This document shows, piece by piece, positions 13,813 through 63,879 of a stretch of 64,000 nt of DNA (position 1 is the first letter of the stretch; each line of letters begins with the position of its first letter). Location: assembly GCF_024734075.1 (NCBI RefSeq), contig NZ_CP102850.1:2356001-2420000 (forward strand), given 5' to 3'. A program made the position numbers and the translations under genes. Source of the DNA: Gordonia mangrovi. Lineage in GTDB: Bacteria > Actinomycetota > Actinomycetes > Mycobacteriales > Mycobacteriaceae. The notes beneath the pieces were generated by a model. It was not told the DNA's origin, searched no databases, and saw nothing but the letters and a program-made list of their open reading frames with translations.

Positions 13813-14754
13813 ATGACCGCCGGAATCGTCATCGCGGTGATCGGTTCGTTCGCCTTTGCCGCGGCTGCGGTGCTGCAGGCGTTGGGCGCCGATCAGGTCG
13901 CGCAGCGCGCCGCGGTGCGTGAGGAGCGGCGCCAGTCGTCGAAGGCGCATCCGTCGCTGCGGTCGACGGTCGCGACGATGCTGACCGTTCCGTTTCTGGT
14001 GGGCTTCGTCTTCGACATCGTCGGCTTCGTGGCGACGATCCTGTCCGCGCGGCTGATCCCGCTGTTCCTGTCGCAGACCATCATCTCCGCACGGCTGGTC
14101 GCGACGGCACTGCTGGCAATGGTCGTGCTGCATGTGCGGTTGGCGGTGCGGGACTGGATCGCCGGCACCGTGGTGGTGGTCTCGCTGGTGTTGCTGGCGG
14201 TGTCGGCCGGCCGCGAGGGCACCGAGAACGAGCGGTGGATGCACTGGGCGGTGCTGATCGCCGGGCCCCTCCTGTTCGGGCTCGGTCTGCTGTGTATGCG
14301 GATGCTGCACAGGCACATCGCCGCGGCAACCGGGCTGATGGCGGGCGCGGTGTTCGGGGTCATGGCCATCGCTTCACGCATCGTCGACGGCCTCGACACC
14401 CTGGACCCGGTCGCCATGTTCACCGATCCGGCGCTGTATGCCCTGTTGTTCAGCGGGATCGGCGGGTTCTACCTGTTCACCGTTGCGCTGCAGACGGGTT
14501 CGGTGAACGGTGCGGCCGCCGCGTTGGTGGTGGGGCAGACGGTGCTGCCCGGCGCGGTCGGCATCGTGTTCCTCGGCGACGTCACGCGCGCCGGGTGGGG
14601 TCCGGTGGCGATCGTGGCATTCATCGCCGCGGTGGCCGGTGGGGTGGCGTTGGCGTCGTCGGGTGCGGTGACCGCGGTGGAGTCCGCCGATGCCACCAAC
14701 ATGCCTACGGGCTATGGACATCCGCCTCGGGAGACGAGGCGGATGTCCGATTGA
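13813..14754 (+). CDS. DMT-superfamily (EamA-like) transporter
   Basis: A 313-residue membrane protein with about nine hydrophobic segments, laid out as two halves of a drug/metabolite transporter-type protein (first MTAGIVIAVIGSFAFAAAAVL, last AIVAFIAAVAGGVALASSGAV). The first cytoplasmic loop is basic. Substrate unknown. It follows serS by 42 bases. The last codons are built from a 14-bp inverted repeat that also acts as a terminator, so the hydrophilic C-terminal tail (HPPRETRRMSD) is partly a by-product of that structure. Confidence 0.78.
   Translation: MTAGIVIAVIGSFAFAAAAVLQALGADQVAQRAAVREERRQSSKAHPSLRSTVATMLTVPFLVGFVFDIVGFVATILSARLIPLFLSQTIISARLVATALLAMVVLHVRLAVRDWIAGTVVVVSLVLLAVSAGREGTENERWMHWAVLIAGPLLFGLGLLCMRMLHRHIAAATGLMAGAVFGVMAIASRIVDGLDTLDPVAMFTDPALYALLFSGIGGFYLFTVALQTGSVNGAAAALVVGQTVLPGAVGIVFLGDVTRAGWGPVAIVAFIAAVAGGVALASSGAVTAVESADATNMPTGYGHPPRETRRMSD
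14716..14748. terminator. Strong bidirectional terminator hairpin
   Basis: A perfect 14-bp stem, GGACATCCGCCTCG and CGAGGCGGATGTCC, with a 5-base loop GGAGA. It lies inside the last codons of the DMT transporter and just before the stop of the convergent secreted-protein gene, so it can end transcripts from both sides. There is no T-run on either strand. Confidence 0.75.
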
Positions 14755-20410: not shown

Positions 20411-20779
20411 TCACTCGGCAGGGGCGTGCGGCCTACGTGGCCGGTAGCACCCGGCGCACATGGTCTTGATGCGCGGGAGGTCGTCACGTGTTGAACCGCG
20501 TTTGCCGCAGAACTCGCAGACAGATCGCGACTCGTCGGTCGATGCCCCGATCAGAACCTCGCAGACACCCCGCGTGAACTCGTCGACAGACTCGCCGTAG
20601 TCCAGGTGGCACCGCAGCGTGCCGTACTTCTCCTTGATCTGGACGTAGGCGAAATCAGAGGTGACCGAAGTGAGTTGCCGATGGAGACGCGCCAGGAGCG
20701 GATACCAGCCGCTGTACACAGTGCAGTCGATCTCTGGCCGCGTCATCTCTGCAGGCAGATGCGCCGGACCGTCGGCCAT
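20411..20779 (-). CDS. Phage-type zinc-ribbon protein
   Basis: A 122-residue protein with the GWYPLLARLHRQL ... VQIKEKYGTLRCHLDYGES layout common to small proteins of phages and islands, and a C-terminal four-cysteine ribbon (CEFCGKRG at about 89 and CAGCY at about 109). Function unknown. Its ATG overlaps the TAA of the upstream coiled-coil gene by one base (TAATG), so translation is coupled and the two products probably act together. It is the last gene of the leftward arm of the defence island. Confidence 0.65.
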   Translation of the reverse strand: MADGPAHLPAEMTRPEIDCTVYSGWYPLLARLHRQLTSVTSDFAYVQIKEKYGTLRCHLDYGESVDEFTRGVCEVLIGASTDESRSVCEFCGKRGSTRDDLPRIKTMCAGCYRPRRPHAPAE

Positions 20780-22197
20780 TAGGCGGCCCCGCGCTCTGAC
20801 TCCGACTCAGCCTCGTCGTCGGCCGCTCCGGCCAGCGCGGCAAGGGCCTCACCGAGCAGCCGATCGATGGTCGAGTAGATGGTGCTGCAGGACTTCTCGA
20901 TCTTCTGGGCGTTCTTCTCAATGGTCCCGGCGGTCTTCTTGATGTCGTCGATGGTGCCGAGCTGCTCGACGGCGTCGGTGATCTTCTCCTCAGCCGTGGC
21001 GATCTCGTGCGCACCGGTCCGATTGGCGACGGCGAGAGCCGACGTACGGAGCAACATCACCACGGTGCGGACAAGATCGGGGTCGTCAGTGAGCGGGTCG
21101 AAGGCCAGCACGATCCGGCGCTTCCCAAGCACCCGAATCGTCTCTCCACAGTTCTGCTCGACCGTACGGACCAGGCCGACGGCCGCGTCAGCCTGGCGAT
21201 TGCGTTCGGCTTCGTCGAGGTACGCGCCCCACCCGTCGCGCTTGGAATCGGTCACCTCGATGACCACGCGGGCAGCACCACCGTCAACGGTCAGCACTCC
21301 GTCGCCCTTCTTGGATCGTGCCACCGCACCGACAACGGTTCCGGTCTCGCAGTACTCGTCGCCCAGGCCGGCGGCCACGGTCTGCAGAACCTCATGAACC
21401 TCGGTCTCGTAGGTTCCACCCTTGATCGGCGATACCTTGCTCACCGACGCCTTCGCCTCGGCCACCTTCAGCGCGGTGACCACTTCGTCGAGCCGGCCGG
21501 TCAGCTCGGTGTGCTGCTTGGTCAGCTGTTCGGTGAGGGACTCCTGGCGTTTGGTGAGTTCGGCCGAGTGCTTGGCCATCGGCGATGCCGGATCGTTGGG
21601 GTCGAACTGCTTGGCGGCCTTGGTCAGAAGCTCTGTGGTGTTTGCTGCGGCCCGCTTGTCCAGATTGGCGGCGAACTGTTCGAGCAGCGGTGCGAAGCGG
21701 TCGATCACCTCCGGGTCGGTACCGCCGAACAAGCGCTTGAGTTCCGCTTCGGTCTCGCGGCGCATCTTCTCGATCGACTCCGTCAGTGACTTCCGCGTCG
21801 CTTCGTCGGCTTCCCGCAACGCCTTCTGCGCGTCGGCGGCCGCCTTGGACACGGCTTCCGACGCCGCCTTCACGCTACGGTCGGTGAGTGCGGCCGCCTC
21901 TGCGGTCGACGTCGTGGCCTTGTCGCCGAGTTCGGTGATCATGCGCTCCAAGGCCCGGGACTCCTGCGCCTGGCCAGTCGCGGAGAGCGCGTGGGCGCCG
22001 ACGGTCAGCGCCTTGGCGACGAACTCACCGAGATCGGCATCCGCCAACGTGGTGGGGTCGTCGACGACTGCTCCCCGTTCTCCGGTGGTCCACCGCTGGG
22101 CCTCAAGTACGACGTCTTTGTCGGTCACGGTGACTTCCTCGATGACCACCGCCGTGGTCGAGGGACTGAAGTGTGCTGAGCGGGATGAATCGGTCAT
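20779..22197 (-). CDS. Coiled-coil protein with possible PD-(D/E)XK nuclease domain
   Basis: A 472-residue protein. About residues 65-250 are long alanine/glutamate-rich helices predicted to form coiled coils. Residues about 260-380 start KGGTYETEVHEVLQ, then KKGDGVL, then VVIEVTDSKRDGW and RQADAAVGLV. This order resembles RmuC/DUF2130-type PD-(D/E)XK nucleases, with the aspartate of KKGD and DSK as candidate catalytic residues. A second helical segment ends the protein. The ATG at 22197 has AGGAGG eight bases upstream. It is divergent from the type I restriction operon and separated from it by a 40-bp palindrome. Function unknown; an effector or partner in DNA defence is inferred. Confidence 0.6.
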   Translation of the reverse strand: MTDSSRSAHFSPSTTAVVIEEVTVTDKDVVLEAQRWTTGERGAVVDDPTTLADADLGEFVAKALTVGAHALSATGQAQESRALERMITELGDKATTSTAEAAALTDRSVKAASEAVSKAAADAQKALREADEATRKSLTESIEKMRRETEAELKRLFGGTDPEVIDRFAPLLEQFAANLDKRAAANTTELLTKAAKQFDPNDPASPMAKHSAELTKRQESLTEQLTKQHTELTGRLDEVVTALKVAEAKASVSKVSPIKGGTYETEVHEVLQTVAAGLGDEYCETGTVVGAVARSKKGDGVLTVDGGAARVVIEVTDSKRDGWGAYLDEAERNRQADAAVGLVRTVEQNCGETIRVLGKRRIVLAFDPLTDDPDLVRTVVMLLRTSALAVANRTGAHEIATAEEKITDAVEQLGTIDDIKKTAGTIEKNAQKIEKSCSTIYSTIDRLLGEALAALAGAADDEAESESERGAA

Positions 22198-22272: not shown

Positions 22273-22312
22273 AGTGCATTCACTGTTAAGCCCGCTTAAC
22301 AGTGAATGCACT
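22273..22312. promoter_or_regulatory. 40-bp palindrome, candidate divergent operator
   Basis: AGTGCATTCACTGTTAAGC, then CC, then the exact reverse complement. This is a 19-bp perfect inverted repeat with a 2-base spacer. Each arm holds a smaller inverted repeat, AGTG-CATT-CACT, so there are four quarter-sites. It sits between the divergent starts at 22197 and 22384. The HTH protein encoded to the right is the natural candidate to bind it and control both arms. Confidence 0.7.
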
Positions 22313-22383
22313 TGATCGAGACACGTCGCCCGATAGTGTTCTCGGTATTGCCCGCGACGACGCCACGAGGAGGTGAACGACCG

Positions 22384-24276
22384 GTGAGCACACTGACGAT
22401 GCAGGACATCGCGGTCTTAGCGAGGGTATCGCGGCCGGCCGTCAGCCAGTGGCGGAAACGCCCGGTGGTACGTGGCGAGTTGATCCCGTTCCCGGCGCCC
22501 GTCGCCACCGTGGACACCGTGGAGCACTTCGATCAGGGCGAGATCGTTGCGTGGTTGGAGCGCACTGGGAGAGGCCGAAACCGCGAGGAGCAGCAGCTCG
22601 ACGTCGGTGCATACGCCCTTCCGGAGCGTGTTCGGTTCGACGACGTCGTGCTGCTGTTGGCGCTCTACGCCCTGTCCGGTGTGGATCTTACCGACGCGAC
22701 ACACGCCGACCTTGTCACCGCGGCCACGACCGTCGACCCGACCGACGAGCTGGTCGCTCGAGAAGTGCGGGCGATTGACGCGGACCCCGACACGTTGGCG
22801 TTTGCTGAGCAGCTCATCGATGCATCGCTGGGGACACCCGATGCCCTGGAACGCCTGGAACGCGGCCGGCTCGGACGGTCGCGCGGGAGTCGGGATTTGA
22901 CTGCTGAGGCATTGGCATTGATCCGGTGCGTTGTCGAGGCCGCGGTCATGCATCTCGGACAGGAGGACGTGCCGATCATCCCGGGAGGCGATCCGGTACT
23001 TGCACTTGCCGTGGCCGATGTCTCGTCCCGTCTCGTGGTCGACGGCCGGGTCAGTGACGAGCGCGAGCTGAAGCGCCGTGCTGCCATCGCCCAGGTGGAG
23101 ACCGACAGCAGCGCACGAGGCCCGGCGGTTTCGGTCACATCGCTTCTCGGTGCTGAGGTCGGAGTTGTCCTCGACTCCGTCGACACAACACTTCTCGAAC
23201 TGAATGACGGGGACGTCGGGGTGATCGTGGCGTCGGCGGCCGCTCTGACCGATCAGCTCGCCGGCGAACTTCAGCGTCGCCGGTCCGAAACGCTGATGAT
23301 CGGCAATGTCGTTGCTGCACTCCGTCTTCCTCGCGGCATGTGGCGCGAAGCTCATCGACAGTGTCAGGCCATCTGGATCTGCAGAGGTGGCGCCGCCGTC
23401 GACCTGCTGCATGTCGCCGATCTCGACATCGCCAGACGCGACCAGTTCGGTGACCTCGCCGCCGACGTGGCAGCAGCCCTCGACCAGGACGTCCGCCGCG
23501 CAGCGCGGTTCACCCGAGCACGCGAACTGCTTCGGATCAGGACGAGCGGAACCGTCGTGCCGCAAGGAACTCAGGCGCCGCGCCTGCATTCTCGAACAGC
23601 TGAGACACACGCCGATCGCGTTCATCGCGCGACGTTGCAGACTTCGGAACCCGTACGAACTGTCGACGTTCTGATCGCGCCCTCAGCGGGGCGGTTTCGC
23701 ACGCAGCAGTACTCCTTGGCCGAACTGGCCGAACAGAAACTGATCTCCGTGCTCTCGGGGAATCGGATCGACCCTACCGACGCCGACCCCGAGGGTACGG
23801 TCGACGTGCTGCCCGACCGTCCGTATCGGTTGGAGCCGTTCCACGCCGCGCAGCGCTATCGCCGTGCCCGCCGCACCGACGCCGGCGACATCGTCTTCGT
23901 TGAAAAGCCCGCTCCACGCGCCGTCATCGATACCACGGGCGGATCACTGGTTGCGGCGCCGGCGAAGATCCTGCGTATCAACCGAATTGCGCCGTTCGGG
24001 CCGTACGTCATCGCGGCGATCATCAACACCAGGTGCGCTGCCGGCAGTGAATGGAAGACGTGGCGTGTACCAGAGTTCACGCCCGACGACGCGCGTCGAC
24101 TGGAGACAGCATTGGCCGAGGTGGCGGCGTACCGGCGCGCGGTCGAGGAGAAGATGGCCGCCGCCGTCGAGTTGACCGGCGCCCTGATCGATGGTGTCGC
24201 GGAGGGTGAGATCTCACTGGATGCCGCCGACACCACCGCCGGAATAACGGCAACAACAAGCACAGCTACGACGTAG
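22384..24276 (+). CDS. HTH protein with methyltransferase-like and HsdS-like regions
   Basis: A 630-residue protein leading the type I restriction operon. Residues about 5-60 form a helix-turn-helix (MQDIAVLARVSRPAVSQWRKRP ... VEHFDQGEIVAWLERTGR). The middle (to about 350) resembles actinobacterial HTH-N6-methyltransferase fusions, including GDVGVIVASAAAL and VVAALRLPRGMW, but I see neither the DPxCGSG SAM motif nor an NPPF/Y motif. The C-terminal part (about 470-620, DAGDIVFVEKPAPRAVID to TGALIDGVAEG) resembles an HsdS target-recognition half. The GTG at 22384 is chosen for the AGGAGG at 22368-22373. It ends 30 bases before hsdM. A DNA-binding controller or specificity helper is inferred. 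Confidence 0.62.
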   Translation: MSTLTMQDIAVLARVSRPAVSQWRKRPVVRGELIPFPAPVATVDTVEHFDQGEIVAWLERTGRGRNREEQQLDVGAYALPERVRFDDVVLLLALYALSGVDLTDATHADLVTAATTVDPTDELVAREVRAIDADPDTLAFAEQLIDASLGTPDALERLERGRLGRSRGSRDLTAEALALIRCVVEAAVMHLGQEDVPIIPGGDPVLALAVADVSSRLVVDGRVSDERELKRRAAIAQVETDSSARGPAVSVTSLLGAEVGVVLDSVDTTLLELNDGDVGVIVASAAALTDQLAGELQRRRSETLMIGNVVAALRLPRGMWREAHRQCQAIWICRGGAAVDLLHVADLDIARRDQFGDLAADVAAALDQDVRRAARFTRARELLRIRTSGTVVPQGTQAPRLHSRTAETHADRVHRATLQTSEPVRTVDVLIAPSAGRFRTQQYSLAELAEQKLISVLSGNRIDPTDADPEGTVDVLPDRPYRLEPFHAAQRYRRARRTDAGDIVFVEKPAPRAVIDTTGGSLVAAPAKILRINRIAPFGPYVIAAIINTRCAAGSEWKTWRVPEFTPDDARRLETALAEVAAYRRAVEEKMAAAVELTGALIDGVAEGEISLDAADTTAGITATTSTATT

Positions 24277-24306: not shown

Positions 24307-25932
24307 ATGGCTGCAAAGCGCAAGGCGGAGCCGGCGGCTCCGTCGACGATGAAGGAACTGAAAGACACACTGTGGAAGGCCGCCGACAAGCTGCGTGGCT
24401 CGCTCTCGGCGAGTCAGTACAAGGACGTGATCCTCGGCCTGGTCTTCCTCAAGTACGTGTCCGACGCGTATGACGAGCGGCGCGAAGAGATTCGACGCGA
24501 GTTGATTGCCGACGGGTTCGACGAGGACCAGATCAACGAGGTCATCGACGACACCACCGAGTATCACGGTGCAGGCGTGTTCGTGGTTCCGCCGATCGCG
24601 CGGTGGTCGTTTCTGGCCGACAACGCCAAGGGCCTGACGCCCGGCGACGGCAGCCCCGACAAGAACGTTGGTCAGCTGATCGACGAGGCGATGGACGCCG
24701 TGATAGCCGCCAACAAGTCATTGGCGGGCACACTCCCGCGAATCTACAACCGTGACAACATCGATCAGCGACGTCTCGGCGAACTCGTCGACCTGTTCAA
24801 CAGCGCCCGGTTCAGTCGGCAGGGTGAGCACAAGGCGCGCGACCTCATGGGTGAGGTGTATGAGTACTTCCTCGGCAACTTCGCCCGTGCCGAGGGTAAG
24901 CGGGGCGGCGAGTTCTTCACGCCGCGCAGCGTTGTGCGGGTGATCGTCGAAGTTCTCGAGCCGACGAAGGGTCGCGTCTACGACCCATGCTGCGGTTCGG
25001 GTGGCATGTTCGTGCAGACCGAACAGTTCATCTACGAGCACGATGGCGATCCCAAACAGGTCTCCGTCTATGGCCAGGAGGCCATCGAAGAGACCTGGCG
25101 GATGGCCAAGATGAACCTGGCCATCCACGGCATTGACAACAACGGCCTCGGAGCCCGATGGGGCGACACCTTCGCCCGTGACCAGCACGCAGACCTCCAG
25201 ATGGACTACGTGATGGCCAACCCGCCGTTCAACATCAAGGACTGGTCGCGCAACGAGGAAGATCCGCGCTGGCGATTCGGTGTCCCGCCGGCGCGCAACG
25301 CCAACTACGCCTGGCTGCAACACATCCTGTACAAACTCGCGCCAGGTGGCAAGGCGGGTGTTGTGCTCGCCAACGGCTCGATGTCGTCGAACAGCAACGG
25401 TGAAGGGGACATCCGGGCTGAGATCGTCGATGCGGATCTCGTGTCGTGCATGATCGCACTGCCCACTCAGCTGTTCCGCAGCACCGGTATTCCGGTGTGC
25501 CTGTGGTTCTTCGCCAAGGACAAGACGAAGGGTCCGCAAGGTTCTATCGACCGCAGTGGTCAGGTGTTGTTCATCGACGCCCGCGAGATGGGCTACATGG
25601 TCGACCGCGCCGAGCGGGCACTGACCGACGAGGAGATCGTCAAGATCGGCGACACTTTCCACGCGTGGCGGGGATCTTCGTCTGCGGCAGCCAAGGCCGT
25701 TGAGTACGAGGATGTTCCGGGGTTCTGCAAGTCAGCAACTCTCGAAGAGATCAAGGCGGCGGGGTATGCGCTGACCCCGGGCCGGTACGTCGGTGCCGCC
25801 GAAGTCGAGGACGACGGCGAGCCGATCGATCAGAAGATTTCGCGGTTGAGGACGGAACTGTTTGCTGCGCTGGAAGAGTCGGCGCGGTTGGAGAAGGTTG
25901 TGCGGATGCAGATGGAGCGGGTCGATGGGTGA
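24307..25932 (+). CDS. hsdM: Type I restriction-modification methyltransferase subunit HsdM
   Basis: A 541-residue N6-adenine methyltransferase subunit. The N-terminal HsdM_N helical region is at about 10-150, and the catalytic core has the SAM motif YDPCCGSGGMF at about 224-234 and the NPPF motif at about 302-305. EFFTPRSVVRVIVEVLEP precedes motif I as in other HsdM proteins. The ATG at 24307 follows AAGGAA by ten bases; upstream ATGs at 24283 and 24286 are less likely. The stop overlaps the hsdS start. With HsdS it methylates host DNA, and with HsdR it completes the restriction complex. Confidence 0.95.
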   Translation: MAAKRKAEPAAPSTMKELKDTLWKAADKLRGSLSASQYKDVILGLVFLKYVSDAYDERREEIRRELIADGFDEDQINEVIDDTTEYHGAGVFVVPPIARWSFLADNAKGLTPGDGSPDKNVGQLIDEAMDAVIAANKSLAGTLPRIYNRDNIDQRRLGELVDLFNSARFSRQGEHKARDLMGEVYEYFLGNFARAEGKRGGEFFTPRSVVRVIVEVLEPTKGRVYDPCCGSGGMFVQTEQFIYEHDGDPKQVSVYGQEAIEETWRMAKMNLAIHGIDNNGLGARWGDTFARDQHADLQMDYVMANPPFNIKDWSRNEEDPRWRFGVPPARNANYAWLQHILYKLAPGGKAGVVLANGSMSSNSNGEGDIRAEIVDADLVSCMIALPTQLFRSTGIPVCLWFFAKDKTKGPQGSIDRSGQVLFIDAREMGYMVDRAERALTDEEIVKIGDTFHAWRGSSSAAAKAVEYEDVPGFCKSATLEEIKAAGYALTPGRYVGAAEVEDDGEPIDQKISRLRTELFAALEESARLEKVVRMQMERVDG

Positions 25933-27115
25933 TGTTCGGCAAGTAGCGCTTGGCGAAGTCGCCGATGTGACCGTGGGTTTTGTCGGCTCAATGGCTGGGG
26001 AGTACGTGGACGTTGGCGTTCCATTCTTGCGGTCGCTCAATGTGCGGCCCTATCGGATTGACCCAGCGGATCTGAAGTACGTCGGCTCAGCGTTTCACAG
26101 GCGACTATCAAAGTCGGAGTTATCTCCCGGCGACGTTGTGATGGTTAGAACTGGGAAACCGGGTCAGGCTGCGGTGATACCGGAATGGCTTGGGCATGCG
26201 AACTGCTCGGATCTCGTGGTGATTAGACCCAGCAGCAGCGTTAACGCACATTGGCTCGTCTACTACCTGAACGGAATGGCCCGGCACGCGATCGCGGGCG
26301 GCCTGGTAGGCGCTGTACAGCAGCACTTCAACGTCAAGTCGACGAAGGAGATGCAGCTTCCGCTCCCTGAGAGGTCGGCGCAAGACGCGATCGCCGGAAT
26401 CCTCGGCACCCTCGACGACAAGATTGCGGTTAACGATCAGACGATTGAGCTGACGCTCAGCTACACGGACGCGTTATTCAAGCGAGCCGCAGCACATGTC
26501 TCTCGGGACAGCGTCACGTTTGGGACGGTCGCTGACGTGGGCGGCGGAGGTACACCGAAGACGATTGTTGAGGATTTCTGGGGTGGTGATGTCGCCTGGG
26601 CCACTCCGACCGACGTGACAGGGCTCGCTGCTCCGTATCTGAGTGCAACGGCGAGAACGATCACGCCAGAGGGGTTGAGAGCCTGCTCTTCGCCGTTGTA
26701 CCCGTCCGGCTCGATTCTGATGACGTCACGCGCGACGATTGGTGCTTTTGCAATCGCGCAGATTCCCACTGCCGTCAACCAGGGATTCATCGTCGTCAAC
26801 GCGAAGGAACCCGAGTACCAATGGTGGCTGTTTCACGAAATGGCCTCGAGGGTGGACGATTTCTTGAGCTATGCAAACGGCGCGACCTTCCTCGAGCTAC
26901 CCAGAAAACGGTTCCGCGACCTGAGCCTCCGCTGGCCAACATCGACCGCAGCGAAGGAGTTCGCAGAGCAGGTCGCGCCCCTTCACGAACTTGGAGCTCG
27001 GATGGTCGAGGAAAACTGCACCCTCGCCCGCACCCGCGACCAACTGCTCCCTCTCCTCATGTCGGGCAAGGTGACGGTCAAGGACGCCGAGGACGAGGTC
27101 AGCGGGATGGTCTGA
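25925..27115 (+). CDS. hsdS: Type I restriction-modification specificity subunit HsdS
   Basis: A 396-residue specificity subunit with two target-recognition domains. The first spans about 5-165 (ending MQLPLPERSAQDAIAGILGTLDDKIAVNDQTIELT, the conserved spacer helix) and the second about 200-360 (ending FAEQVAPLHELGARMVEENCTLARTRDQLLPLLMSGKV). The ATG at 25925 lies inside the end of hsdM (8-base overlap). Its DNA is visibly less GC-biased than that of its neighbours, as expected for recently exchanged specificity genes. The target sequence cannot be predicted from reading. Confidence 0.93.
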   Translation: MGDVRQVALGEVADVTVGFVGSMAGEYVDVGVPFLRSLNVRPYRIDPADLKYVGSAFHRRLSKSELSPGDVVMVRTGKPGQAAVIPEWLGHANCSDLVVIRPSSSVNAHWLVYYLNGMARHAIAGGLVGAVQQHFNVKSTKEMQLPLPERSAQDAIAGILGTLDDKIAVNDQTIELTLSYTDALFKRAAAHVSRDSVTFGTVADVGGGGTPKTIVEDFWGGDVAWATPTDVTGLAAPYLSATARTITPEGLRACSSPLYPSGSILMTSRATIGAFAIAQIPTAVNQGFIVVNAKEPEYQWWLFHEMASRVDDFLSYANGATFLELPRKRFRDLSLRWPTSTAAKEFAEQVAPLHELGARMVEENCTLARTRDQLLPLLMSGKVTVKDAEDEVSGMV

Positions 27116-27185: not shown

Positions 27186-28948
27186 ATGAACACAGTCGAT
27201 CTCGTCGCACGTTTGCGTAGGTTGGGGACAGACCTCGCACAGGTGGAGGTCAAGTCGGCGGCAGGTGGCTTGCCCAAGGACGTCGTCGAGTCACTCAGCG
27301 CCTTCGCCAACGGAGACGGGGGAGTCCTCATCCTCGGGCTGTCAGAGGCGGATGGATTCACCCCGGTACCAGGCTTCGCCTCCAAAGCAATGCGTGACGC
27401 GCTGGCCACCGCCTGCGCCGACCAGATGGAGCCACCGCTCCGGCCTGCAATCGACATCGAGGAGTTCGAGGGCTCCCTCATCGTCCGAGCAGACATCGAT
27501 GAGATCGACCCCGTAGACAAGCCGTGCTACGTCAAGACGCGTGGCCATCATCAAGGGTCCTTCATCCGCAGTGGTGACGGTGATCGGTTGCTCTCCGCTT
27601 ACGAGGTCGCGCAGCTGCTCGCCAACCGCACGCAGCCCAAGCACGACCTCGAACCGATCACCGACGCCACACTCGACGACTTGGACGCCGATCTCGTAAA
27701 CCGATTGATCCGGCGGGCGCGAGACCGGCATCAAAGAACCTTCCGCAACCTGGAAACCGAGGAGGCGCTCGCGCGGCTCAACGTGCTCACCCGCGTCGAG
27801 GGGCAGTATGTGCCGACACTCGCCGGCATCATTTCGTTGGGCCGTTACCCGCAGCAGTTCCTTCCGCAACTCTTTGTCGCAGTAGTGGTGTCGCCCGGTA
27901 CGCAGATCGGGGACCAGACGCCCGACGGAGTGCGGTTCCTCGACAACGTGACTGCCGATGGATCGATCCCCGACATGGTGGCCACCGTGGAGGAAACGTT
28001 GCGGCGCAACATGCGTAAGGCGGCGGTAGAAAAAAGGCTGTACCGGGAGGACCGCTACGACTATCCGCTCGACGTGATCCGGGAGCTGGTCGTCAACGCG
28101 ATCATGCACCGGGACTACAGCCCGGCGTCGCGAGGTATGCACGTCCAGATCGAGCTGTACCTCGACAGGCTGGTCGTCAACAGCCCGGGGGACTCTTCGG
28201 CGATGTGTCCGCTCGGTCGCTGGGCACATCGGAGCAGCGTTCGTCGTCGCGCAACGCGGCGCTTGCGAAGCTGCTCGCAGACATTCCCGTCGATGCCCAC
28301 AGCAACGAGTCCATCGGTGAGAATCGAGGGAGTGGTCTGCCGAATGCGATGCGGTCACTACGGCAGGCGGGCATGAGTCCGGCGCGCTTCGACGTCAGCC
28401 CCGGGCATGTGCGGGTCACGGCGTCCGGTCACGCGCTTCTCGGCGTTGATGTGACCGAATGGATCACTGATTTGGGAGAGCCCGACCTGACGCCCACGCA
28501 GGATCTCGCGTTGGCCATGGCACACGTGACCGGGCGGGTCACCAACGGCATGCTCCAAGCGTGGGGCGTCGACCGCGTTGCCGCAGGCGCAGCACTGCGT
28601 GATCTAGTGGACCGAGTCCTGTTGGTGACGACAGGTGGAAAGCGATACGCAAGTTACCAATTGGCGGATCGCGTCATCCCGCTGGCAGTTCTTCCGGAGG
28701 TTGCAGCCGACTCTGACACCACGGCTACGGCCGGCACCGAGGGCATAGCCGCCGACCTCGATGCCGTCGAGCAAGCCATCGCCGCGGGGCACGTCACTGC
28801 GCGTGCCATCGAGGCAGCGCTGGGCATGAACTACCGCGCAGTGCTGCGCCGTCTCACCAAACTCATCGACGCAGGCCGCGTCCAACGAATCGGGCAACGG
28901 CACAGCAGTCGCCAGACCTACCGACTCACGAATGGGGACAATACATGA
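27186..28948 (+). pseudogene. AlbA_2/HATPase protein gene with a one-base frameshift
   Basis: One gene in two frames. The first part (27186 on) encodes an AlbA_2 (Schlafen-like) domain: VEVKSAAGGLPKDVVESLSAFANGDGGVLILGL. It continues to a HATPase_c_4 region, VIRELVVNAIMHRDYSPAS ... LVVNSPG. At a run of five G (28187-28191) the frame is lost and the first frame runs on to a stop at 28376. One extra G restores GGLFGDVSARSLG ... SSRNAALAKLLADIPV ... ENRGSGLPNAM in the next frame, which continues to 28948 with winged-helix segments. The intact product would be about 587 residues. It sits between hsdS and hsdR. A sequencing error, phase variation or true decay are all possible. Confidence 0.8.
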
Positions 28949-31900
28949 GCACTTTCACCGAAGCCGACTGGGAAACACTGGCGCTGGAATGGCTGGGCGA
29001 CCAAGAATGGAGGCCGCTGACCGGCACCGACATCGCACCTGGAACCGATGGCCGAACCGCAGGGGATGACATCATCCTGCCCGACCGTTTGCTCGCGAAG
29101 ATGCGCGAGTTGAACCCGGCTGTGCCGTACGAGTATCTGGTGCAGGCGCGGGCCGCAGTGCTGGCGCCCGAGTCGCAGGACGCGATCGCCGAGAATCACC
29201 GGCTGCACGAATACCTGGTCAAGGGATACCGCGGCATCACCTACATCGACCACGAGGGACTCGAGCAGACCCCGACCATCCGACTCGTCGGAACGCGACC
29301 CGAAGACAATGAACTGCTTGCTGTCCAGCAGGTGACGGTCCGCAACTCGGAGCACCATCGGCGCTTTGATGTGGTGTTGTACCTCAACGGCCTGCCTGTG
29401 GCGTTCTTCGAACTGAAGCAAGCCGGTTCGGAACATGCCGACCTTGCGTCCGCGCACGCTCAATTGACGACATACCTCCGCGAGTTCCCGATGGTGTTCC
29501 GCTTCGCGGTGGTCTCGGTGATCAGCGATGGGATCACCGCCCGCTACGGCACTCCGTTCACACCGCTCGAGCACTACGCGCCGTGGAACGTCGACGACGA
29601 CGGCAAGCCCGTCACCACCGGCCACACGACCGACCCGGACAAGATGGGCCTCGAACTCGAGTACCTGATCGACGGAGTGTTCAACCCGGAACGATTCCTC
29701 CAGTTGCAGCGCAACTTCACCGCCTTCGACACCGGCGCCGACGGCTACGTCAAGCGGATCGCCAAGCCGCATCAATATTTTGCGGTCACCAAGGCAGTCG
29801 GCAATACTGTCGCCGCCGCCGAGAGCACCGGCAAGGCCGGAGTCGTCTGGCACACCCAGGGCTCGGGCAAGTCGATGGAAATGGAACTCTACGCACACCT
29901 GGTGGCTCGGCAGCCGAAGCTCAAGAACCCGACGTTGGTCGTCGTCACCGACCGCCGCGAACTCGACGGCCAGTTGTTCGAGACGTTCAACAGGTCCGAG
30001 CTTCTCGACGAGTCGCCGGTCAAGGTCACAAAGCGTGAGCAGTTGCGCAACGAACTGGCGAATCGCACCACCGGTGGCATCTACTTCACCACCTTGCAGA
30101 AGTTCAGTCGCACAAAGGAAGAACGCGAGGCGGGCGCAGATCATCCGCTCCTCACCGACCGACGCAACGTCATCGTCATCGTCGACGAGGCGCATCGCAG
30201 CCACTATGACGACCTCGACGGATATGCCCGGCATCTCGCCGACGCGGTACCCAACGCGACCCTCATCGCGTTCACCGGAACGCCGATCTCGTTCGCCGAG
30301 CGCAACACTCGCGAAGTCTTCGGTCCCTACATCGACATCTATGACCTGACGAGAGCGGTCGAGGACGGCGCCACCGTGCCCGTCTACTTCGAGCCGCGAC
30401 TCATCAAGGTCGGTTTGGCCGACGACGTCACCGAGGACGATCTCGACCGGGCCGCCGATGAGGCAACCACAGGACTCGACGACGCCGAAAGGTCACAGAT
30501 CGAGAAGTCCGTGGCCGTCATCAACGCCGTGTACGGGGCGCCGGAACGGCTCAAGTCGCTGGCCGCCGACATCGTCGAGCACTGGAACGGGCGCTCTGAA
30601 TCGATGGAGAGCTTCATCTCCACGCGCGGAAAGGCGTTCATCGTCGCCGCCACCCGCGACATCGCAGCACGCCTGTACGAGGAGATCGTCGCACTGCAGC
30701 CCGAATGGCATGACGACGCCGTCGACAAGGGCGTCATCAAGGTCGTCTATTCGGGCAGCGCGAAAGACCAAGGGCTCATCGCCAAGCATGTTCGGCGTGA
30801 TGCGCAGAACAAGATCATCCAGAAGCGCCTCAAGGACCCCGAAGACGAGCTGCAACTGGTCATCGTCAAGGACATGATGCTGACCGGTTTCGACGCCCCG
30901 TCACTACACACCCTGTACCTGGACCGCCCACTCAAAGGCGCGCTCCTGATGCAGGCACTCGCACGGGTCAACCGCACCTTCCGCGGCAAGCCGTCGGGAC
31001 TCCTGGTCGCGTACGCACCGCTGGCCGACAACCTGCAGCAGGCCCTGGCCGAGTACACCGAGACCGACCAGGCCGAGCAGCCGGTCGGGCGCGATATCGA
31101 TGAGGCGGTGGCGCTGACCGGTGAACTCCTCGCCCAGCTGGATTCCGTCTGCTCCGGGTACGACTGGCGCGCAAAGGTGAAGGAGTCCGATCGAGGCTGG
31201 ATGAGAGCGGCCATCGGATTGACCGACCACCTGAGATCGCCCGAGACCGCCGGAAACCAGGTGGACGACGGCGAGGAGACGTTGGGTGCTCGCTTTCGGA
31301 CGCTCGCGGGGAGCCTGTCCAGGGCCTGGACGCTCGCCGGCGGCAAGCGGACGCTGGAGGAATTGCGCCCGACAGTTCAGTTCTACGAAGAAGTTCGAGT
31401 ATGGATGGGCAAGTTCGACGCCGCTGACCGTCAGGCCGAGGGGCGACCGGTTCCCGAGGAGATCAAGCGGCTGTTGTCGAAGTTGGTCGCGACCTCGACC
31501 GTGAGCGGGGAGATCGTCGACATCTACGACGCAGCGGGCCTGCCGAAGCCATCGCTATCGGACCTCGGCCCAGATTTCGAGGCCAAGGCCAAGGCTGCGA
31601 CCAACCCGCACCTGGCCATCGAAGCGCTGCGCGCGACCCTCAACGAGGAATCCGCGCGAGCCACACGCAACAACCTCGTCCGTCAACGTGACTTCTCCGA
31701 ACGGATCACTGAGCTGATGAAGCGCTACACGAATCAGCAGATCACGTCTGCTGAGGTCATCGCCGAGCTCATCGCTATGGCGAAAGAGGTCGCTGCAGAG
31801 GGTAATCGGGGTCAGCACTTCACGCCCGCGCTGTCGGAGGATGAACTCGCCTTCTATGACGCCGTGGCAGAGAACGATTCGGCGGTCGAGTTGCAGGGCG

Positions 31901-32142
31901 ACGAGATCCTCGCGCAGATCGCGAGGGAACTGGTCGGCATCATGCAGCGGGACACGAAGTACGAATGGACCGTTCGCGACGACATGCGCGCGAAACTGCG
32001 GTCGTCGATCAAGCGGCTGCTGGTGAAGTACAAGTATCCGCCGGACAAACAGCCGGCAGCCATCACCACGGTGTTCGAGCAGATGGAGATGATGGCTCCG
32101 CGGTTCGCCGAACAGAACGGCCCTGTAGGTGCCGATGACTGA
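28945..32142 (+). CDS. hsdR: Type I restriction enzyme R subunit HsdR
   Basis: A 1065-residue motor/nuclease subunit. The N-terminal PD-(D/E)XK nuclease has RFDVVLYLNGLPVAFFELK at about 140-157. The SF2 translocase follows with Walker A GSGKS at about 306, the DEAH box at about 413, LIAFTGTPI and the motif VI ALARVNRTFRGKP at about 672. The C-terminal part (about 860-1050) matches the HsdR helical region that contacts HsdM. The ATG at 28945 overlaps the previous stop (ATGA), so translation would depend partly on the frameshifted upstream gene being read through. All catalytic motifs look intact. Confidence 0.95.
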   Translation: MSTFTEADWETLALEWLGDQEWRPLTGTDIAPGTDGRTAGDDIILPDRLLAKMRELNPAVPYEYLVQARAAVLAPESQDAIAENHRLHEYLVKGYRGITYIDHEGLEQTPTIRLVGTRPEDNELLAVQQVTVRNSEHHRRFDVVLYLNGLPVAFFELKQAGSEHADLASAHAQLTTYLREFPMVFRFAVVSVISDGITARYGTPFTPLEHYAPWNVDDDGKPVTTGHTTDPDKMGLELEYLIDGVFNPERFLQLQRNFTAFDTGADGYVKRIAKPHQYFAVTKAVGNTVAAAESTGKAGVVWHTQGSGKSMEMELYAHLVARQPKLKNPTLVVVTDRRELDGQLFETFNRSELLDESPVKVTKREQLRNELANRTTGGIYFTTLQKFSRTKEEREAGADHPLLTDRRNVIVIVDEAHRSHYDDLDGYARHLADAVPNATLIAFTGTPISFAERNTREVFGPYIDIYDLTRAVEDGATVPVYFEPRLIKVGLADDVTEDDLDRAADEATTGLDDAERSQIEKSVAVINAVYGAPERLKSLAADIVEHWNGRSESMESFISTRGKAFIVAATRDIAARLYEEIVALQPEWHDDAVDKGVIKVVYSGSAKDQGLIAKHVRRDAQNKIIQKRLKDPEDELQLVIVKDMMLTGFDAPSLHTLYLDRPLKGALLMQALARVNRTFRGKPSGLLVAYAPLADNLQQALAEYTETDQAEQPVGRDIDEAVALTGELLAQLDSVCSGYDWRAKVKESDRGWMRAAIGLTDHLRSPETAGNQVDDGEETLGARFRTLAGSLSRAWTLAGGKRTLEELRPTVQFYEEVRVWMGKFDAADRQAEGRPVPEEIKRLLSKLVATSTVSGEIVDIYDAAGLPKPSLSDLGPDFEAKAKAATNPHLAIEALRATLNEESARATRNNLVRQRDFSERITELMKRYTNQQITSAEVIAELIAMAKEVAAEGNRGQHFTPALSEDELAFYDAVAENDSAVELQGDEILAQIARELVGIMQRDTKYEWTVRDDMRAKLRSSIKRLLVKYKYPPDKQPAAITTVFEQMEMMAPRFAEQNGPVGADD

Positions 32143-33058
32143 GGAATGGGTTCACTTGCCGAACCAATGGACGCATCTCCAGCGCTTCTCCCACATGATC
32201 GAGCAGCTGCAGGAATCGTTTGGAGTGCTGCCTGAGCTCGAGTCAGCTGAATCGAGGAGGGCTCGCGCTGCGGAGCTGGTCAAACGGCGAGATGCACTGG
32301 CCGGCAAACTCTGGAATGTGATGGCTACGCGGGAGGGTGGGCTGTCCGGCACCGCTGCCGTACGCGCAGCTTCAGCAGCCGATGACGAATCCACGCAACA
32401 GGTGGTCGGCGAACTCGTCTCGCTGATCCCGACCCGTGTCATCCATGAGCGTAAGAATGCTTGGGCGTATCTCGACGCCGAGGTGCAGCAACCAGTCATC
32501 GATGCCGGACCGCTCGCCGACAGCGAAGTGTGGCGGGATCGAGCTGACGCAGCGAACATCGACGCACTGGACCGGCTCGGCAACCCCGAGGACTACGACG
32601 GTGCCGAACCCATCGAGGACATCGCGGTCCCGCCCGATGTGGCGTGGACCGAAGCCGACCGCAAAGCGGCGCTCGACAACGCAGTCGACACTTACGGGCT
32701 GGAACCGGGGGAGTGGTACTCGATGGAGTGGCCACCGACCGAGGCGTCCCTGTGGAGCGCCGGCTCAGTTTCCCGGACGGAGTGGGAACCGTGCAGCGCA
32801 CACGAAGATGACCCAGACTCTGACGAGGCCGAAACTTGCGTGACGTGCGAAGACTCGGTCCGCGAGACCGTCGTGGCCGAGGCGCTCTGGGTATTCACGG
32901 TTGCACTGACGAAGAACCGCATTGGCTTCGACATCTCCGGGACGTTGGTCGATGACCTGATCAGCGAGGAGATCGATTCCTCGTTCGAGGTGCGCGAGAT
33001 CGAGCAGGACCCGAGGGAGATCCTCATTGGATCGCCGGGACGTGGCACCCGGTGGTGA
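32135..33058 (+). CDS. Unknown protein encoded at the end of the hsd operon
   Basis: A 307-residue acidic soluble protein I do not recognise. It begins with a helical region (LQRFSHMIEQLQESFGVLPEL ... SRRARAAELVKRRDALAGKLW) and has a CVTCED cysteine pair at about 244-249. The C-terminal segment ALWVFTVALTKNRIGFDISGTLVDDLI is more hydrophobic. The ATG at 32135 lies inside the end of hsdR (8-base overlap); a GTG at 32129 is an alternative start. The overlap says it is made together with HsdR, so a role in regulating or assisting the restriction complex is possible. Confidence 0.7.
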   Translation: MTEEWVHLPNQWTHLQRFSHMIEQLQESFGVLPELESAESRRARAAELVKRRDALAGKLWNVMATREGGLSGTAAVRAASAADDESTQQVVGELVSLIPTRVIHERKNAWAYLDAEVQQPVIDAGPLADSEVWRDRADAANIDALDRLGNPEDYDGAEPIEDIAVPPDVAWTEADRKAALDNAVDTYGLEPGEWYSMEWPPTEASLWSAGSVSRTEWEPCSAHEDDPDSDEAETCVTCEDSVRETVVAEALWVFTVALTKNRIGFDISGTLVDDLISEEIDSSFEVREIEQDPREILIGSPGRGTRW

Positions 33059-34858: not shown

Positions 34859-36469
34859 CACCGGTTCGCCAGGCGGTGGTCCCGGCGCGGGCTCCACCGG
34901 CGGCGTTGCATCGGGCGCAGGTTCCTGCGGCGCCGGCTCCTGCGGCGCCGCTTCCGGCGGTGCGCTCGAGCCGGCCACCATCGCTCGGATCGGACCCAGT
35001 GCGGCGTAACCGAACTCGCCGGGGCAGCTGGTGTTGTTGTAGTCGCGGTGTCCGCTGATCACCGGCAGGTTGGTGACGGCGCCGACGGGGAACTTGCTGT
35101 CGGAGAAGTACTCCGCGGTCAGCTGCGCGTTGGTCGCGGGATTCACGCCGGCCTTGCCGAGCCGCCAGCGCAGGAAGTTCGCCACCGAGGAGATCATCGG
35201 AGTGGTCGGTGCGACCTCGTCCAGATTGCCGATCATCGAGATCCCGACCGTGTTCTTGTTGAACCCGCCGGTGTGCGTGCCCTCGACGTTGCGGTCGAGT
35301 CCGCCGAACGCGCCCTCGAAGATCTGCCCGTACTTGTCGACCAGCACGTTGTAGCCGATGTCGCACCAGTTCAGCGTGCGCGCGTGGTAGGCGTAGATGC
35401 CGCGGACGATCTCCGTCGACTGCTCGGGCGTGTAGTCGTTGCTGCCCGCGGTGTGATGCACCACCGCGCCACGGACATTGGGGGAGAACGTCGGCTGCGA
35501 GCACCGCATCGACTCGTCGGCGCCCCACTGCGCCCGCGCCACCACCTGCGGCCCGCCGAGCAGCGGAGTCAGCAACGACGACCCGAGGGACAGCAGACCC
35601 TCCGGACTGATGAGGGTGGCCGTCAACGCCGGCACCACCGTCTCGAGCAACTCCGTGATGACGGCGCTGGCCGTGCCGATGCCGAGTTCCACCAGACCAC
35701 CGCCCTGTGGTTCGGCCGCCGGGATCGCGAAGCCGTCGTCGGAGACCGCCACCTGAATCTCCCTGGCGTCACCCACCCACACCGGCTCGGTACCCATCGG
35801 GTGTTCCGACGACACCGGGTAAGCCGCGTCGACCGGGTCGAGATCGAGCCAGTCTCCCCACGACCCGTCGTCGTTACGGGCCCGCAGCATCATCGACGCA
35901 TCGACCGCCCGGTCCCAGGTGAACGCGACCATCTTCAGCGGGTCGTCGCGGACGATGTGCTTGACGGCCACACCCACCTCTCGGCCGTCCGCCATCCGCG
36001 GCGGCGCAGGCGGTGCGTCCGGAGCGGATGACGTGTCATCGGGCGACGCGGGAGCGGGTGCCTGCGGTGCGGCCTTCGGCGCGGGCTGCGGGGCGGGCTC
36101 TGGTTCCGGCTGCGGTTGCGGCTGAGGCGCCGGTTCGGCCGGCTCGGAATCGGGGTCCGCGGACGTCTCCGGCGCTGCCGGACCCTGCACACCCGTCAGG
36201 TCTCGCAACCCGAAGGCCGTCGGGTCGATCTCGGGAAGCTGCAATCCGGCCGCCGACAACCCGGACTCGGCCAGGTCCACCACCACCGTCGGCACATCGC
36301 CCAGCCCGATCTGGTCGATCGCGGTGGGCTGCACCTCGCGATGATTGTCGGTGGGTCGCAGCTCCGACCCGGTCACGATGATGGCAAACGGACTCGCGAC
36401 GATCGCGGCGGCGATCGTCGCGAGTACGAACGACGGCCTGGGACGGGCGTTGGGACGAACTCGGCGCAT
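34832..36469 (-). CDS. Peptidoglycan-recognition N-acetylmuramoyl-L-alanine amidase
   Basis: A 545-residue secreted or membrane-anchored amidase. A hydrophobic N-terminus (SFVLATIAAAIVASPFAIIVTG) is followed by a long proline/glutamine-rich linker, a beta-rich middle, then the amidase_2/PGRP domain at about 310-490. Zinc ligands are visible in VVHHTAGSNDYT and SGHRDYNNTSCPG, with RAQWGADESMR at the start of the domain and GYNVLVDKYGQIFEG. The enzyme cuts the muramic acid-peptide bond of peptidoglycan. By position it matches Rv3811. A proline-rich tail ends the protein. Confidence 0.9.
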   Translation of the reverse strand: MRRVRPNARPRPSFVLATIAAAIVASPFAIIVTGSELRPTDNHREVQPTAIDQIGLGDVPTVVVDLAESGLSAAGLQLPEIDPTAFGLRDLTGVQGPAAPETSADPDSEPAEPAPQPQPQPEPEPAPQPAPKAAPQAPAPASPDDTSSAPDAPPAPPRMADGREVGVAVKHIVRDDPLKMVAFTWDRAVDASMMLRARNDDGSWGDWLDLDPVDAAYPVSSEHPMGTEPVWVGDAREIQVAVSDDGFAIPAAEPQGGGLVELGIGTASAVITELLETVVPALTATLISPEGLLSLGSSLLTPLLGGPQVVARAQWGADESMRCSQPTFSPNVRGAVVHHTAGSNDYTPEQSTEIVRGIYAYHARTLNWCDIGYNVLVDKYGQIFEGAFGGLDRNVEGTHTGGFNKNTVGISMIGNLDEVAPTTPMISSVANFLRWRLGKAGVNPATNAQLTAEYFSDSKFPVGAVTNLPVISGHRDYNNTSCPGEFGYAALGPIRAMVAGSSAPPEAAPQEPAPQEPAPDATPPVEPAPGPPPGEPVSPAPPPAA

Positions 36470-47904: not shown

Positions 47905-47984
47905 TGGCGGCGTGTCTGCGGTGCACGCCACTCGCCCCCGACCACGGTGGGTGGTCGGGGGCGAGTGGGTTCGGTGCGACGGGG

Positions 47985-63844: not shown

Positions 63845-63879
63845 AACGCCCTACGTGTAAGAAACACGTAGGGCGTTTT
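63845..63879 (+). terminator. Rho-independent terminator after the mycolyltransferase gene
   Basis: AACGCCCTACGTGT, loop AAGAA, then the exact reverse complement, giving a 14-bp perfect stem that ends in TTTTG. It lies 78 bases past the mycolyltransferase stop and ends its transcript. A smaller hairpin (CCACGC/GCGTGG, 63813-63830) precedes it. Confidence 0.9.

Follow-up and report, generated by a model that had tools for sequence, protein, structure and literature searches.

The hsd locus and its palindrome

The window, by which we mean the whole 64-kb stretch of Gordonia mangrovi DNA analysed here, contains a type I restriction-modification operon in which all genes run rightward in one direction. 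The first gene right of the palindrome described below encodes a 630-aa helix-turn-helix (HTH) protein (22384-24276, + strand), hereafter the regulator. It is followed by HsdM (24307-25932, +), whose NPPF and DPxxGSG motifs are intact, HsdS (25925-27115, +; assigned by family search), a Schlafen/AlbA_2 - HATPase_c_4 protein in two overlapping frames (27186-28948, +; frames 27186-28376 and 28205-28948), HsdR (28945-32142, +), which has the same direction as hsdM and lies within 5 kb of it, and an open reading frame at the operon end (32129-33058) for which we found no family match. The split of the Schlafen-like protein near 28200 is a frameshift or a sequencing error. On the other side, a divergent coiled-coil protein (20779-22197, - strand) is not tied to the operator; it gave no family match above the cut-off and its AlphaFold2 model was poor (pLDDT 57). 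An earlier note on this DNA had described the divergent starts (ATG at 22197 on the minus strand, GTG at 22384 on the plus strand) and the type I operon of HsdM, HsdS and HsdR correctly.

Between the divergent genes lies AGTGCATTCACTGTTAAGC-CC-GCTTAACAGTGAATGCACT (22273-22312, no strand), a 40-bp palindrome whose 19-bp arms are 100% complementary around a 2-bp spacer. This feature, first reported in the earlier note, proved exact on re-checking, and it exceeds in length every other perfect inverted repeat of the window (spacer up to 10). The 5.39-Mb genome has a single exact copy of the 40-mer, and a search for its inner pattern TTCACTGTTAA-N6-TTAACAGTGAA that tolerated up to three mismatches likewise hit one place in the genome. 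The nested AGTG-N4-CACT repeat that had been noticed in each arm is also present, with two occurrences in the window, one per arm, and none elsewhere in it. Within the palindrome, we identified an 18-bp operator core, TGTTAAGCCCGCTTAACA (22284-22301, no strand), which family comparison identifies as a copy of the motif YGWTAA-N6-TTAWCR. Allowing up to one mismatch, we found the core pattern at a single place in the window (dinucleotide shuffles have a mean of 0.07, with one occurrence in 7 of 100); no second operator was found in the window.

Next in length to the palindrome, among the perfect inverted repeats of the window, comes a GC-rich one of 18 bp at 47928-47968 with a terminator-like look, and further perfect inverted repeats of 14-18 bp lie at 36392-36425, 63845-63877 and 14716-14748. 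Since other perfect inverted repeats (e.g. that at 47928) look terminator-like, the palindrome might itself be read as a transcription terminator or RNA hairpin. However, its place is between divergent genes and ahead of the predicted promoter, no T run follows it, and the family motif is only 18 bp long and stands at a fixed distance from the -10 box. We consider this reading vanishingly improbable.

A putative operator motif with fixed spacing to a predicted promoter

With the regulator protein as query, we found the regulator in 48 of 401 genomes from the same family. The motif YGWTAA-N6-TTAWCR was derived from the first 30 of these loci, where it forms an 18-bp palindrome (17 bp in two loci) with a mostly G+C middle upstream of the regulator, and was then tested on the rest, with some genomes being in both sets. 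Motif scores were counted as matches out of 12, over 320 bp of upstream sequence for the first 30 loci. All 30 reached at least 11/12, a score of 11/12 being found in 20 of 6000 base-shuffled upstream regions and 12/12 in none; the remaining 18 family genomes all scored 11 or 12, giving a family total of 48/48 at 11/12 or better. A protein-based search of named genomes added 80 loci from Gordonia, Rhodococcus, Nocardia, Dietzia, Amycolatopsis, Nocardioides, Arthrobacter, Cellulomonas, Agromyces and others, every one of which has the motif (65 at 12, 13 at 11 and 2 at 10). A control stretch 2 kb upstream scored at most 10 in 79 of these 80 loci and 12 in L039, which has a second site there. After loci with identical starts were removed, the motif was present upstream of the regulator in 118/118 (95 at 12, 21 at 11 and 2 at 10), although some genomes may remain double-counted in this set via shifted starts.

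Some observations on individual sites and records accompany these counts. As a marker, an exact YGATAAN6TTATCR anywhere in the genome performed poorly, occurring in 92 of the 401 genomes, that is, in 41 of the 48 with the regulator and 51 of the 353 without a match. Across the 80 named loci, a single extra strict GATAA-type site was found beyond the primary one, in L039. One record labelled Sporosarcina (Bacillota) contains a regulator locus of actinobacterial type (L096), reflecting either a transfer or a mislabelled record.

The conserved symmetry is confined to the core. Outside its 18 bp, symmetry is found in 47 of the 80 named loci at the first flanking base and in 16-33 of 80 further out, such that family symmetry reaches only ~1 bp past the core. 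In the closest relative (L003, with a regulator 76% identical), the outer arms are partly retained, the left AGTG-N4-CACT being intact and the right one broken, while in L004-L006 both repeats are broken and the outer arms are mostly gone. Because the outer arms are eroded in the nearest relatives and family symmetry ends ~1 bp outside the core, we regard the 40-bp repeat as the family operator with a lineage-specific extension of 11 bp per side. The earlier expectation that the palindrome would be conserved at homologous loci therefore stands for the 18-bp core, which precedes every one of the regulators in the de-duplicated set, and fails for the outer arms. The earlier note had also proposed that four quarter-sites are bound by two cooperating dimers with control in both directions. 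The nested repeats in both window arms, and the left one retained in L003, speak for such an arrangement; the broken repeats of L003 to L006, the end of family symmetry just outside the core and the lack of a phased -10 box to the left in the window (see below) speak against it, and we judge it improbable.

The spacing between the motif and the predicted -10 box is strict. In 75 of the 80 named loci, the motif is followed at 31-33 bp by the start of a TANNNT hexamer (shuffles: mean 2.3, maximum 10), and the other five have it at 35 bp (one), at 43-44 bp (three) or not at all (L089). Among the first 30 family loci it lies at 31-34 bp in 24 and at 43-44 bp in five, with none in L007; among the other 18 family loci it lies at 31-33 bp in 16, with none in L160 and L171. 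The null results for L007, L089, L160 and L171 refer to the 50 bp next to the regulator motif. The two spacing classes (31-34 and 43-44 bp) are about one helical turn apart. The distance from motif to start codon is variable across loci, and the family alignment has no -35 consensus, with little conserved besides the motif and the -10 box. In the window, the predicted -10 box TAGTGT (22334-22339, +) follows the core by 32 bp, a spacing conserved in the family, and from its position at 22334 we predict a transcription start at ~22346 and a core centre at ~-53.5. Inspection of the sequence also offers a possible -35 element, TTGATC (22312-22317, +), which is not conserved in the family, and a likely ribosome-binding site, GAGGAGG (22367-22373, +).

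A mirror-image -10 box is found 32-33 bp on the opposite side of the motif in 38 of the 80 named loci (shuffles: mean 1.7, maximum 8), and for this reason the site seems to serve two divergent promoters there. These loci (within L045-L112) belong mostly to Arthrobacter and relatives, and in many Arthrobacter loci the mirror-image box precedes a ~220-aa protein with a membrane-like segment. To the left of the window palindrome, by contrast, reading of the sequence revealed no TANNNT at a phased distance, and a homologue of the divergent protein is present in only 11 of the 80 named loci. Two-way control, as had been suggested for the window, is thus not borne out there, although loci with the mirror-image box elsewhere have the layout for it.

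The location of the site, its helical phasing and the lack of a conserved -35 element lead us to read the operator as a site of activation, and we infer that the promoter layout suits an activator better than a repressor. A caveat is that the window promoter itself has a fair -35-like element in TTGATC, which could work alone and would then favour repression. The same regulator and operator might accordingly provide negative feedback, as do RptR or the Mycoplasma HsdC. Autorepression is common among regulators encoded by the first gene of an operon, and both locus-encoded type I regulators that we found in print (HsdC and RptR) are described as repressors. However, the HsdC and RptR sites overlap the -10 box or the start, whereas the site described here ends 31-34 or 42-44 bp before the -10 box, in two helical phases, and in the 38 loci with a mirror-image box it sits between two outward -10 boxes. 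We therefore think repression unlikely and retain activation as the preferred reading.

An HsdM homologue follows the regulator in all 80 named loci, and copies of the motif also occur before hsd genes that are separated from it. A genome-wide motif scan revealed that several genomes have second sites close to the locus. In L113-L116, which were picked for second sites, and in L118, on a separate contig of a fifth genome, the second site lies just upstream of hsdR. Extra sites are few in the 80 named loci because distant hsdR genes mostly lie outside their flanks: hsdR was in range in 43 of them, with no more than 7.7 kb from the regulator start to the hsdR start, and one of these (L099, 11/12) has a site before hsdR. 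Larger regions were taken instead. Of 40 other regions, for which a second site played no part in the selection, 28 contained hsdR. When hsdR lies more than 6 kb after hsdM, a 12/12 motif of its own precedes it in 9 of 11 cases (L138 scores 10 and L123 scores 9); when it is closer than 6 kb, one of 17 scores 12, one 11, one 10 and 14 at most 9. Shuffled hsdR upstream regions reached 11 in 12 of 5600 and 12 in none. These hsdR motifs are followed by a -10 box at 31-34 or 42 bp, with no TANNNT within 50 bp for those of L141, L152 and L160.

The same pattern holds for hsdM. Two genomes, G046 (L132/L105) and G063 (L137), have hsdM more than 2 kb behind the regulator match, and in both a separate 12/12 motif of the 17-bp form precedes hsdM, followed at 32 bp by TAGGGT. 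Three further loci with a separate hsdM and no motif (L108, L152 and L171) were left uncounted, since their regulator match is broken or partial and the gap is perhaps unreal. G368 has a second motif 84 bp ahead of its hsdM match. Given these copies before distant hsdR and hsdM, every separately transcribed hsd unit seems to be marked by the operator. In L166 (G154) and L167 (G306), a second operator (12/12 and 11/12, respectively) precedes an open reading frame of 540-574 aa with a membrane-like start, ahead of the regulator, and the regulon may therefore include a third unit.

The regulator and its tie to the operator

The motif follows the regulator rather than hsdM. The HsdM subtype of this system is present in 66 of the 401 genomes, of which 21 gave no regulator match, and we examined ten of these 21. 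Two (L166 and L167) do have a regulator, missed by the one-sequence search, with a motif of 11/12 before each. In the other eight, the 5.9-6.9 kb taken upstream of the hsdM match contain no motif scoring 11 or more; of these eight, L165 has a distant HTH homologue and no motif, and L170 has a weak profile match (E 0.0002). In another of the eight, L161 (G085), a 71-residue C-terminal remnant of the regulator remains beside hsdM, with no operator upstream.

Variation within the HTH points in the same direction. Residue 19 of the HTH is Ala or Val and, compared across the 118 loci (three of them unreadable), T at operator position 3 on at least one side is found in 9 of 10 loci with Ala and in 0 of 105 with Val. 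The rule is not perfect, as the exception L060 combines Ala19 with a GATAA operator, and the operator of L040 is a hybrid. The Ala19 label requires four changes on a tree of 33 sequences; an earlier tree of 34, in which the two most distant Ala rows were omitted and L060 was unread, gave two. This covariation of residue 19 with operator base 3 links the HTH to the operator and, as comparative evidence, suggests that the protein binds there. The proposal of the earlier note that an operator is linked to the regulator in the first gene of the type I operon has thus gained ground, with the motif being present at every homologous regulator locus tested and tracking the regulator, not hsdM. The motif might instead belong to a host regulator, with the large protein not being its binder; its absence upstream of hsdM in the eight loci without a close regulator and the residue-19 covariation speak against this, and we regard that explanation as quite improbable.

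The regulator (P0001) has no family match in Pfam, NCBIfam or PADLOC, and no methyltransferase family is among its matches. Among 28 relatives, HTH_17 matches three and the Pfam N6_Mtase model one (E 0.042), both weakly, and the match between the regulator and an HsdM profile is weak as well (E 0.084; E 0.08). With sequence matches this weak, homology to HsdM rests on the predicted fold. An AlphaFold2 model built with 53 sequences (pLDDT 87, pTM 0.81) comprises a winged HTH (residues ~1-61), a degenerate HsdM-like methyltransferase fold (~69-400) and a target-recognition-domain (TRD)-like domain with a long C-terminal helix (~440-606). Using Foldseek and VIA-align, residues ~69-586 align with type I HsdM and with related N6-adenine methyltransferases that carry TRDs; the best structural match is 3lkd (Z 16.4, rmsd 4.5 A, 314 residues), followed by 7eew, BpuSI, M.TaqI and BrxX. 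A plasmid search returned two weak relatives of the regulator, both annotated as hypothetical protein.

The catalytic motifs expected of such a fold are missing. The pattern [NDS]PP[YFWH] is found in 0 of 28 regulators in one set (A1) and is absent from 52 of 53 in another (A2), the sole match being an SPPW in L083 that is out of context, and DPxxG[ST]G is found in no regulator of either set (A1, n=28; A2, n=53). Both motifs are present in 16/16 of a comparison set of HsdM proteins. An HsdM-like predicted fold that has lost its NPPF and SAM motifs is most likely a pseudo-methyltransferase turned transcription factor, and it is probable, judging from the model and the motif losses, that the regulator has an HsdM/HsdS-like body that no longer methylates. 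A protein that is an active N6-adenine methyltransferase as well as a regulator, in the manner of M.SsoII, and that perhaps methylates operator adenines would agree with the predicted methyltransferase fold and TRD-like domain; given the contrast in catalytic motifs between these regulators and HsdM, it is highly improbable.

A proposed control circuit and known systems compared

We hypothesize that the palindrome core is the operator of the 630-aa protein, which would be an autogenous controller, probably an activator, of the type I system, with distant hsd units included; we consider this reading likely. A dimer of the regulator would dock its N-terminal winged HTH on the two TG(A/T)TAA half-sites, centred ~53 bp upstream of the regulator's own promoter, and thereby activate transcription of regulator-hsdM-hsdS(-hsdR). 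Where hsdR or hsdM forms a separate unit, the same regulator would act via the further operator copy before that unit. Through such autogenous control, restriction could follow the build-up of the modification-operon product and hsdR expression could be delayed, and the body of the regulator would be a pseudo-enzyme derived from an HsdM-HsdS-like N6-adenine methyltransferase.

More tentatively, the regulator might be a defunct copy of the modification enzyme of its own system that has been retained as a sensor and whose HTH turns on hsdR only once modification is in hand. The HsdM/HsdS-like body could then read the state of the system, be it free HsdS or HsdM, SAM or unmodified target DNA. This is a possibility to which we attach low confidence. 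If true, it would constitute a built-in transcriptional check on type I restriction, comparable with, though unrelated to, that of the type II C proteins.

More generally, these results describe a candidate family of controllers, with a precisely defined operator, that is spread over many actinobacterial genera, making the timing of type I restriction and its acquisition by cells directly testable. They also offer an evolutionary path from enzyme to transcription factor, and the strict operator-to-minus-10 spacing gives clean predictions for work on actinobacterial promoters. We found no published description of this regulator family in the open-licence PMC literature. An outside regulator, ArsRS, is reported to act on a Helicobacter hsdM (PMC10810217).

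Of the MADS models in PADLOC, mad1 (a 60-position profile) weakly matches the HTH in 5 of 28 regulator members. The window's HsdM and HsdS are hit by mad2 and mad5, though general type I models fit them better. With type I HsdM (N6_Mtase) itself, the regulator shares the fold (3lkd) and lacks DPxxGxG and NPPF.

Two small regulators of type I systems have been described. HsdC of Mycoplasma gallisepticum is a C-protein-like regulator encoded, like the regulator here, in a type I hsd operon, and its report presents evidence for repression through direct repeats, (GTGTTAN5)2, that overlap the -10 box (PMC5282649). The repeat identified here is inverted instead, and in most loci the -10 box follows it at 31-34 or 43-44 bp. 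RptR of enteropathogenic E. coli is reported as a 9-kDa four-helix repressor acting on TAGCTA repeats over the -10 box; it resembles the present regulator in coming first in a type I restriction-modification island and in the joint conservation of site and protein (PMC12255303), and, as described there, differs in protein size and in motif.

The type II C proteins are autogenous regulators with a symmetric operator upstream of their own promoter and are thought, according to the account consulted, to time restriction (PMC12707154); they are described as small HTH proteins (PMC5282649, PMC12255303). An operator of autogenous type upstream of its own gene (118/118 loci) is what the regulator, as the presumed binder of that site, has in common with them. 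C proteins are small and have a different C-box, whereas this family is ~630-700 aa long, has a methyltransferase-like body and belongs to type I systems. The regulator of the window is not a stand-alone small HTH protein, as its HTH makes up the first tenth of 630 aa, and no C-protein match was found in Pfam, NCBIfam or PADLOC. The earlier contrast with the small C proteins of type II systems is therefore apt for the protein itself, but not for type I systems at large, for which the small regulators HsdC (PMC5282649) and RptR (PMC12255303) have been described.

M.SsoII and M.Ecl18kI are described as DNA methyltransferases with a regulatory domain, modelled on phage 434 repressor, fused at the N terminus, and as binding a 15-bp quasipalindrome to lower expression of their own gene and raise that of the R gene (PMC3978073). 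An N-terminal HTH on a DNA methyltransferase fold is common to these proteins and, by its predicted structure, to the regulator. As presented in that source, they are active C5 enzymes of type II systems, in contrast to an N6/type I HsdM-like fold that has lost its catalytic motifs and has a separate, intact HsdM beside it. The regulator thus resembles both the C proteins and the M.SsoII-like regulatory methyltransferases in its proposed working and, by the features tested, belongs to neither.
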